Assembly (NCBI RefSeq): GCF_002843385.1 | Contig: NZ_MVDE01000027.1 | Span: forward strand, 1 to 64,000 | Reading direction: 5' to 3' | DNA: 64,000 nt | DNA from: Labilibaculum manganireducens | GTDB taxonomy: Bacteria; Bacteroidota; Bacteroidia; Bacteroidales; Marinifilaceae | Part shown: positions 27,655-29,907 of the stretch, piece by piece | Numbering within the stretch: the stretch's first letter is position 1 | Layout of the letters: the number at the start of each line of letters is the position of its first letter | Notes under the pieces: model-generated | What the model saw: only the letters and a program-made list of their open reading frames with translations | What the model was told of the DNA's origin: nothing | Databases searched by the model: none | Position numbers and translations under genes: made by a program

Positions 27655-28674
27655 TTGAAGAAAAATCTCATACATATCATAAAATTTCTAATCTTCTTTT
27701 CAATTAGCTGTTTCTTATTTTGGTACGTTTATAGAGGTCAAAATACTTCTGAGCTAATTTTCACTTTAAAAAATGAAGTCAATTATTACTGGATTCTTCT
27801 TTCACTGTTTTTTGGTCTGCTAAGTCACATCAGCAGAACCATTCGATGGAACATGCTCATTGAATCCTTAGGGAAAAAACCCAGAACAATCAATACTTTT
27901 CTTGCGGTTATGGTTGGTTACTTTGCAAATCTTGCACTTCCAAGAATGGGCGAAATTTCAAGATGTGGCTTAATCAGCAAGTACGAGAACATTTCATTTT
28001 CCAAATTAATAGGCACAGTAGTTCTTGAAAGAGTACTGGATATAATCATGCTAATCATTTTTCTGTTAATCGCATTGTCAACACAGTTTTCGGTTATCTC
28101 TCATTTCTTCTCAAATAATCCTGAAGTCAGCAGCAAGCTCTCAAATGTATTTGCATCCGCAAATACCATATATGTAATTGCTGCTGTTTCAATCCTAATC
28201 TGGATTTTAAGAAAAAGATTTAAAAACACAGTTGTTTTTAAGAAGATTGATCAAACTCTTTCCAATTTTATGGCTGGCTTTCGTGCCATTAAGAAACTGG
28301 ATAACAAATGGTCGTTTGTCTTCCATACTGTCTTTATTTGGATCATGTATTATTTGATGACGTATATCTGTTTCTTCAGTTTCGGATTTACATCAAATCT
28401 TCCCGCGATTGCCGGACTGACCGTTTTCGTAATGGGTAGTTTTGGAATGGTTGCTCCAGTTCAAGGAGGAATTGGTGCCTGGCATTTTATGGTGATCGGA
28501 ACTCTCCTGATTTACCTTCCTGAAGTTGCCAACATCGAAACCATGTCGAAAAGCTTTGCTCTTGTTGTGCACGGTGCACAAACAGCTATGATTATCATAC
28601 TAGGTGCAGCCTCAGTAATTGCTCTCCCAATAGCAAACCGAAAGCAAGTTAAATTAATAAAGTCCAAAATTTGA
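27655..28674 (+). CDS. Flippase-like (LPG-synthase TM domain, UPF0104) membrane protein
   Basis: The 339-residue protein has about eight membrane helices. Landmarks typical of the lysylphosphatidylglycerol-synthase transmembrane domain/AglD family are LLSHISRTIRWNMLIE, YFANLALPRMGEISRC, VVLERVLDIIMLI, and the late VAPVQGGIGAWHFMV. In MprF this domain moves aminoacylated lipids across the membrane. The start is TTG (MKKNLIHII); no in-frame ATG exists before the first helix. The next gene begins 1 bp after the stop. Confidence 0.82.
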   Translation: MKKNLIHIIKFLIFFSISCFLFWYVYRGQNTSELIFTLKNEVNYYWILLSLFFGLLSHISRTIRWNMLIESLGKKPRTINTFLAVMVGYFANLALPRMGEISRCGLISKYENISFSKLIGTVVLERVLDIIMLIIFLLIALSTQFSVISHFFSNNPEVSSKLSNVFASANTIYVIAAVSILIWILRKRFKNTVVFKKIDQTLSNFMAGFRAIKKLDNKWSFVFHTVFIWIMYYLMTYICFFSFGFTSNLPAIAGLTVFVMGSFGMVAPVQGGIGAWHFMVIGTLLIYLPEVANIETMSKSFALVVHGAQTAMIIILGAASVIALPIANRKQVKLIKSKI

Positions 28675-28675
28675 G

Positions 28676-29857
28676 ATGAAAATCGATTTTACCATTTTTG
28701 AAGTTAACGATCTTCATTCAAAAAGAGAATTCATTGAACTTCCGGTACGACTTTATCAGAAAATGAAAAACTGGATTCGGCCTCTGGATTCGGACATTGA
28801 GAAGGTTTTTGATCCGAAACAAAACAAAATGTTTACTCATGGGGAGTGTATCCGCTGGATTCTTCAGGACCATAACAAACAAACCATAGGCAGAATTGCA
28901 GCTTTTATAGACCATAAAACAAAAGATTTAAACGAGCAGCCAACAGGAGGACTGGGCTTTTTCGAATGCATTAACAATAAAGACGCAGCCTTCGCTCTAT
29001 TTGACACTTGCAAAAATTGGCTGAAAGACAAACAAATTGAAGCCATGGATGGACCAATTAATTTTGGAGAAAGACATCAATGGTGGGGACTTCATGTTGA
29101 CGGAGATCACAAACCTGTTTATTGTATGTCTTACCATTTTAAATACTATCAGAATTTTTTCGACTCTTACGGATTCCAAATCTACTTTAAACAATATACT
29201 TACCGAACTAAGTTTGCAGTCGAAAGCTTAAGTGAAATTATAAAATGGAAAGCTAAAAGACTTCTAAACAACAACGAATACCAGATAATCCATTTCAACA
29301 AAAAAGACTCAGACAAACTCATAAAGGATTTTGTACACGTATACAACGAAGCCTGGGTGAAGGAGATACCTGGCATTGAAGGTATTTCCGAACAACAAAC
29401 TCAAGACCTGTTCAAGACCTTAAAACCAATCATGCATGAAAAATTGATGTGGTTTGCCTATCACAAAAAAGAACCCATTGGCTTTTTCATAATGATTCCG
29501 GACTTAAATGAACTTCTGCAGCATATAAATGGTAAAATGAACCTTTATGCAAAGCTTCGCTTCATCTACTACAAGCACCTGCAAAAAAACAAAAATGCAT
29601 TGGGTCTAATATTCGGAGTGGTTCCTGAGTTTCAAAAGCGTGGTATCGAGGCCGCAATGATTTACGAATTCTCCAAATCGGGTTTTGATTCCAACTTTCC
29701 ATTTTTAAATTTAGAAATGAATTGGATTGGTGATTTCAATCCAAGAATGAGCCATTTGATGGAGCACATTGGTGCAAAAATCTACAAAACTCATTATACT
29801 TACCGAAAACTATTCGATGAAACAAAAGAATTTAAACGTTCTGTAATTATAAAATAA
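28676..29857 (+). CDS. GNAT-like protein (YghO-type family), function unknown
   Basis: This 393-residue soluble protein has an N-terminal segment (FIELPVRLYQKMKNWIRPL, then GRIAAFID) and a central GPINFGERHQWWGL with PVYCMSYHFKYYQNFF. The C-terminal GNAT-like half includes FGVVPEFQKRGIEAAMIYEF, resembling an acyl-CoA-binding loop, and LNLEMNWIGDFNP. This order matches the poorly characterised YghO-like family. The predicted activity is N- or O-acyl (or aminoacyl) transfer, substrate unknown. It is translationally close-coupled to the flippase-domain gene, and a terminator follows. Confidence 0.7.
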   Translation: MKIDFTIFEVNDLHSKREFIELPVRLYQKMKNWIRPLDSDIEKVFDPKQNKMFTHGECIRWILQDHNKQTIGRIAAFIDHKTKDLNEQPTGGLGFFECINNKDAAFALFDTCKNWLKDKQIEAMDGPINFGERHQWWGLHVDGDHKPVYCMSYHFKYYQNFFDSYGFQIYFKQYTYRTKFAVESLSEIIKWKAKRLLNNNEYQIIHFNKKDSDKLIKDFVHVYNEAWVKEIPGIEGISEQQTQDLFKTLKPIMHEKLMWFAYHKKEPIGFFIMIPDLNELLQHINGKMNLYAKLRFIYYKHLQKNKNALGLIFGVVPEFQKRGIEAAMIYEFSKSGFDSNFPFLNLEMNWIGDFNPRMSHLMEHIGAKIYKTHYTYRKLFDETKEFKRSVIIK

Positions 29858-29886
29858 AAAAGCTGCTCGACTTTGAGCAGCTTTTA
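29856..29886. terminator. Bidirectional intrinsic terminator
   Basis: AAAAAGCTGCTC pairs with GAGCAGCTTTT around GACTTT. It ends the flippase/GNAT pair (+) and recQ (-), which converge here. Confidence 0.88.
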
Positions 29887-29907
29887 CTTTATTTTACCTA
29901 GAATAAT

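Follow-up and report, generated by a model that had tools for sequence, protein, structure and literature searches.

A YghO-family tandem-GNAT protein encoded next to a flippase-like gene in Labilibaculum manganireducens: a proposed N-acyltransferase of sulfonolipid synthesis

Which reaction is catalyzed by a tandem-GNAT protein encoded directly behind a flippase-like membrane protein, and do the two genes belong together? The question is raised by a window of Labilibaculum manganireducens DNA, i.e., the whole 64-kb stretch which was analyzed. It contains, on the + strand, gene 1 (27655..28674; 339 aa, TTG start) and gene 2 (28676..29857; 393 aa, ATG start), separated by 1 bp according to the ORF coordinates. 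To the left are mgtE and ksgA, to the right recQ and a kdsD-type isomerase gene. The initial annotation had viewed the pair, provided with a shared terminator, as a possible split version of MprF which makes and translocates a modified lipid. Here we report sequence, fold and distribution analyses of both genes, which suggest a different assignment for gene 2: probably it is an N-acyltransferase for the sulfonolipid bases capnine or 3-ketocapnine.

The gene pair and the fold of its second product

The product of gene 1 is a flippase-like protein. It matches PF03706 (LPG_synthase_TM) with 127 bits at a cut-off of 33.4, and TIGR00374 is matched as well. This is the membrane-domain family of MprF. 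A PDB search with the flippase profile returned no match, and an AlphaFold model of the flippase from a two-row alignment had a pLDDT of 40 and was set aside. Immediately after gene 2 a terminator-like hairpin was located by terminator scan and folding (29858..29885, + strand). The scan reported three such sites vs. 2.0 on average in shuffles; folding of 29848-29900 gave -19.8 kcal/mol (z -7.5), which was reached by 0/200 shuffles. The hairpin scores on both strands and thus also faces recQ on the opposite strand; it is common to both sides. The arrangement of the pair is operon-like.

Gene 2 is a member of the YghO/bCerS/CerS/Aca family of bacterial ceramide synthases. The similarity to YghO of E. 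coli BL21, a protein of similar length, is full-length (E 2e-26; 88/389 identities, 23%). The yghO gene of E. coli B (ECD_02850) and CC_1154 of Caulobacter have been described as aca, the dihydroceramide acyltransferase gene which is needed for dihydroceramide synthesis (PMC9386255). The Caulobacter enzyme, also named bCerS, is cytoplasmic (PMC11087976), and by analogy a cytoplasmic location is predicted for the product of gene 2. In E. coli BL21 the neighbors of yghO code for a fatty acyl-AMP ligase, an epimerase and an acyl carrier protein, together with spt. CC_1154 and CCNA_01212 we take to be one and the same Caulobacter gene.

Profile searches with gene 2 gave no match to Pfam and NCBIfam models at E values up to 1; in Pfam this includes LPG_synthase_C and all acetyltransferase families. 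A PDB sequence search returned nothing meaningful. The structure model is informative: based on a 37-row alignment it has a pLDDT of 90.7 and displays two GNAT halves which span the whole protein, a fold which is backed by Foldseek and VIA matches. Solved GNAT N-acetyltransferases were matched with Z scores up to 21.8 and coverage of both halves. The closest solved folds are two tandem GNATs, the glucosamine N-acetyltransferase of Clostridium acetobutylicum (5kgh, Z 21.8) and the mycothiol synthase MshD (1ozp, Z 19.6). Identity to these is about 10%, and by the titles of the structures, and beyond these by general background on their roles, they acetylate small soluble amines. MprF (7f47) is found only at rank 50, below other tandem GNATs (Z 13.3, rmsd 6.4, 254 aligned residues).

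Thus, much of the initial annotation stands: two ORFs of 339 and 393 aa with a 1-bp gap, a terminator behind both, a transmembrane protein of the MprF membrane-domain family, and a YghO-like partner. The GNAT fold it assigned to the C-terminal half is real, yet extends over the entire protein, and the comparison with MprF which it suggested confirmed the fold without placing MprF among the nearest relatives.

Clades of the acyltransferase family and the pairing with the flippase gene

The genome encodes two further family members. A B-type paralogue (L009:8680-9894, own-genome contig C2) is 44% identical to gene 2, and a C-type paralogue (L010:8478-9614, own-genome contig C3) is 23% identical; gene 2 itself is designated A-type. 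In the main tree, consisting of 108 proteins (104 of 188 extracted family proteins and four seeds; quick mode, SH-aLRT only), a branch with an SH-aLRT of 99 separates the clade of the window (A/B) from a C/YghO side. The A/B side comprises the A-type of the window, its own B-type, relatives from Bacteroidia and two loci of another class. YghO, which sits on a long branch, is joined on its side by 10 of the 12 loci that belong to other classes of the phylum, the C-type of the window genome with a same-genus copy, all 18 copies picked for an SPT-like neighbor, and eight copies located beside SulA in family f5. A second tree (FastTree, 152 proteins) shows the same split of A/B vs. C/YghO, with values of 99 for the A clade and 86 for the B clade. 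In family f1 an organism carries the label Marinifilaceae, and in the tree MAGs of the Odoribacteraceae are found among the f1 rows.

The genomic neighbors differ between the clades. An SPT homologue adjoins the acyltransferase in 10 of the 12 loci returned from other classes of the phylum. Of the 18 genomes of the window's family with a distant, C-type-like copy, six have it next to an SPT-like gene (by coordinates; five stretches were read). In f5 a C-type relative is convergent to SulA at a distance of 67-736 bp in 8/14 genomes (L260, L262, L263, L266, L268-L271), and is an independent candidate for the sulfonolipid acyltransferase of f5. Near A/B genes neither SPT nor SulA was present in 110 loci with flanks of at most 1.5-5 kb. 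The CerS of B. fragilis is BF9343_4218 (PMC10865984).

Several observations concern the paralogues. The own B-type gene follows a membrane protein gene without NCBIfam match and is close to a lon-like gene; the membrane protein is presumably BI-1-like. A lon homologue is also near the B-type copy of G207 (L296), the sole A/B genome of the order without SulA. The own C-type copy lacks the SPT-like neighbor which is present in six genomes of the window's family.

How tightly is the flippase gene linked to the acyltransferase? It is present in 43/43 genomes of the window's family, as is the A-type acyltransferase (in G034 as a fragment), and adjoins it in 23/43; of the 20 genomes with the genes apart seven were read and 13 judged by coordinates. 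In diverged relatives the gap between the adjacent genes is -4 to 24 nt (24 of 25 loci computed; L023 has no value), i.e., the arrangement recurs and is not peculiar to the window genome. Outside the family a single one (G201, 4-nt overlap) of the 48 A/B-carrying order genomes has the two genes adjacent by coordinates, and among 80 named loci adjacency is seen only in L225, a MAG of the Marinifilaceae which shares an identical acyltransferase with G019. With 23/43 in the family and 1/48 elsewhere in the order, the pairing is lineage-specific. A gene-pair survey, as proposed by the initial annotation, therefore bears out the joint presence of both genes in the family, but neither constant adjacency nor a dependence of one gene on the other across the order.

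The flippase gene starts with TTG (27655), and 23/25 pair-carrying loci have TTG at the aligned position, two loci having an identical acyltransferase. A conserved TTG start could keep flippase expression low.

Considered as an obligate partner of the acyltransferase the flippase was rejected: of eight order genomes without a flippase match five carry A/B, and an association with SulA is absent (flippase in 78/85 genomes with SulA and in 23/24 without).

One may go further and consider the pairing an accident of genome rearrangement devoid of functional meaning, a view which is compatible with a sulfonolipid role of gene 2 and to which we assign slightly less than an even chance. The flippase gene keeps its ksgA/mgtE neighbors in the three window-family genomes which were read with the genes apart, and in one of the three, G014, the acyltransferase keeps its recQ/kdsD-like neighbors. 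In 7 of 29 order loci (L303, L312, L319, L322-L325), and also in L127, on which panC and panD were typed, the flippase gene instead follows panC-panD homologues; in 4 of the 29 it is beside ksgA. Across 109 order genomes the flippase, present in 101, shows no positive association with the acyltransferase (45/50 genomes with A/B vs. 56/59 without, p 0.47). Against an accident speaks that the short gap persists while the proteins have diverged to about 42-53% identity, which suggests selection for co-translation.

The SulA-like enzyme and its co-occurrence with A/B acyltransferases

The genome was searched with E. coli SPT as a query. Three alpha-oxoamine synthases (AOS) were found. One of them, on contig C23 and thus not a neighbor of gene 2, is SulA-like: it scores 611 bits against 7u7h, the SulA structure of Alistipes finegoldii, and 567 bits against 28eh (cysteate-C-fatty acyltransferase) vs. 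240 against SPT. At the place of the SulA-specific Lys281 the enzyme has the lysine of the AKSLPMP motif; that Lys281 belongs to this motif was taken from the published text of the K281A primer, and according to the SulA paper SPT has an alanine here. Its best NCBIfam match is the Bacteroidota SPT model with 307 bits, below the cut-off of 640; one of the SPT-like neighbors of C-type-like copies reaches 525 bits with this model on a partial stretch of 364 aa. The other two AOS are a Kbl (over cut-off) and an enzyme nearest to BioF (380 bits, cut-off 426). No SPT was found among the three AOS. As the SulA-like enzyme is the only lipid-type AOS found in this genome, the likely product is an N-acylated sulfonolipid, not a ceramide.

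The distribution of the genes agrees with this. SulA is present in 43/43 genomes of the window's family. In 19 of the 43 a complete A-type-like copy is the sole family match; four of these were placed on the tree. In the 109 order genomes both genes were scored by best E-values, which form two clear groups; SulA in the surveys denotes membership of the E-value group, with Lys281 not checked genome by genome. A/B and SulA coincide in 49 genomes, A/B without SulA occurs in one, SulA without A/B in 36, and neither in 23. SulA is thus found in 49/50 genomes with A/B vs. 36/59 without (Fisher p 1.1e-6, uncorrected). In a phylogenetic pairing test, with the flippase-gene tree as a proxy of the species tree, 99 of the 109 genomes were used, leaving out eight without a flippase match and the fragments of G217 and G231. 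Five well-supported independent pairs differed in SulA, with 3.1 for and 0.1 against the association on average (median p 0.25). The direction is right; with five pairs only, the test could not have come out significant.

In the phylum sample SulA accompanies A/B in 18/18 genomes. SulA is present in 36 of 37 Bacteroidia genomes there, so that, G044 aside, this sample can discriminate little. This sole Bacteroidia genome without SulA is also without A/B, and its distant copy adjoins an SPT-like gene; its four family mates possess SulA and A/B. SulA also occurs without A/B. Among 85 order genomes with SulA 36 have no A/B, 16 of them no family match at all, and in f22 of the phylum sample 18 genomes carry a SulA-like AOS (48-51% identity) and no A/B. 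In SulA genomes of the order without A/B another enzyme, or none, would carry out N-acylation.

These data bear on what gene 2 acylates. An ordinary ceramide synthase which N-acylates a serine-derived sphingoid base, as do YghO and CC_1154, would be one reading of a YghO/bCerS family member; a Black Sea survey uses homologues of this family as ceramide-synthase markers, with genes scattered in Bacteroidota (PMC11334938). Yet the three AOS of the genome are best typed as SulA, Kbl and BioF, and the copies adjoining SPT in the window's family belong to a different clade, which makes this reading unlikely. From YghO itself gene 2 differs as a member of a separate clade that goes with SulA and has no SPT nearby in the 110 A/B loci which were read. 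A second possibility is a different amino lipid precursor as the substrate of gene 2, namely that of ornithine, glycine or dipeptide lipids. The relative Labilibaculum euxinus has ornithine lipids, glycine lipids and flavolipins (PMC12927429), but the same paper reports olsF and glsAB homologues as distinct genes for the ornithine and glycine lipids, gene 2 lacks a match to any Pfam acetyltransferase family, and the co-occurrence is with SulA; we regard this as quite unlikely. Finally, in a split MprF gene 2 would aminoacylate a lipid with aminoacyl-tRNA as the donor, and the modified lipid would be flipped by gene 1. This reading can draw on the membrane-domain family of gene 1, on adjacency, on the tandem GNAT fold common to gene 2 and 7f47 and on three Odoribacteraceae-like loci in which lysS is close to the acyltransferase, but is most improbable and was rejected because gene 2 is a homologue of fatty-acyl transferases without LPG_synthase_C, because the two genes form a lineage-specific, non-obligate pair, and because of the link to SulA. 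What the pair has in common with MprF is the fold and the membrane-domain family, not the system; the lipid-modifying role in the initial annotation is likely, whereas the MprF-like functional pair is abandoned.

A proposed N-acylation step in sulfonolipid synthesis

Many Bacteroidota have sulfonolipids in their outer membrane, and effects of these lipids on host inflammation and gliding have been reported (PMC9304779, PMC10191378). Odoribacter is one of the main sulfonolipid producers in the gut (PMC9304779). In 'Labilibaculum euxinus', a member of the Marinifilaceae, capnine lipids make up 24-33% of the peak area of intact polar lipids, compared with only about 10% in an earlier culture, and capABC homologues are reported (PMC12927429). 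The pathway proceeds via SulA/CapB and CapC and requires an N-acylation step (PMC10191378). Condensation and reduction have known enzymes; N-acylation is described with the enzyme unnamed in the reviews and enzymology papers, as far as these were accessible (PMC10191378, PMC11211663, PMC9304779). A named sulfonolipid N-acyltransferase was not found in the open-access papers covered; subscription papers may already name one.

We consider it somewhat more probable than not that gene 2 encodes the long-chain-base N-acyltransferase of sulfonolipid synthesis, and that gene 1 is a general flippase-like protein encoded just before it. SulA would produce 3-ketocapnine from cysteate and acyl-ACP in the cytoplasm. 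The A-type enzyme would then attach the second acyl chain to the amino group, before or after reduction. The N-acylated product would cross the inner membrane, perhaps helped by the flippase. Families, fold, operon-like arrangement and the co-occurrence with SulA are observed; substrate, acyl donor, the order of the steps and any flipping are inferred.

Several findings argue against this assignment, among them the SulA genomes without A/B in the order and in f22, the small number of pairs in the phylogenetic test, the match of the own AOS to the SPT model and the lower share of capnine lipids in the earlier L. euxinus culture. G207 has a B-type copy in a genome without SulA. C-type relatives are located beside SulA in f5, and consequently the own B or C copy could be the sulfonolipid enzyme instead of gene 2. 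In the three Odoribacteraceae-like loci with the genes apart (L079, L081, L083) the order is lysS, gpsA, an ORF of 323-335 aa, then the acyltransferase, with two genes between lysS and the acyltransferase; this could favor an aminoacyl-lipid (lysS was typed in one of the three loci and gpsA named by eye).

As to gene 1, a flippase-like protein near-universal in Bacteroidales, it may help to move lipids, including an N-acyl sulfonolipid, across the inner membrane, though not as a dedicated partner. For sphingolipids, Uchendu et al. 2024 report that no flippase had so far been identified by them (PMC11087976). Caulobacter CC_1166, proposed by another group as a 'potential flippase' in the sphingolipid gene region (PMC11324152), may be unrelated to PF03706. 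A bolder and rather unlikely version holds that the A/B clade is the sulfonolipid N-acyltransferase and that the flippase of the Marinifilaceae-like operon delivers the finished lipid to the outer side of the inner membrane, jointly a module for synthesis and export. If true, the module would serve lipids for which the literature cited here, as far as it was accessible, names neither the last enzyme nor the transporter. In any case, the A/B clade is a specific candidate, and since 19 genomes of the family carry it as their one family member, the missing N-acylation step of sulfonolipid synthesis becomes directly testable.
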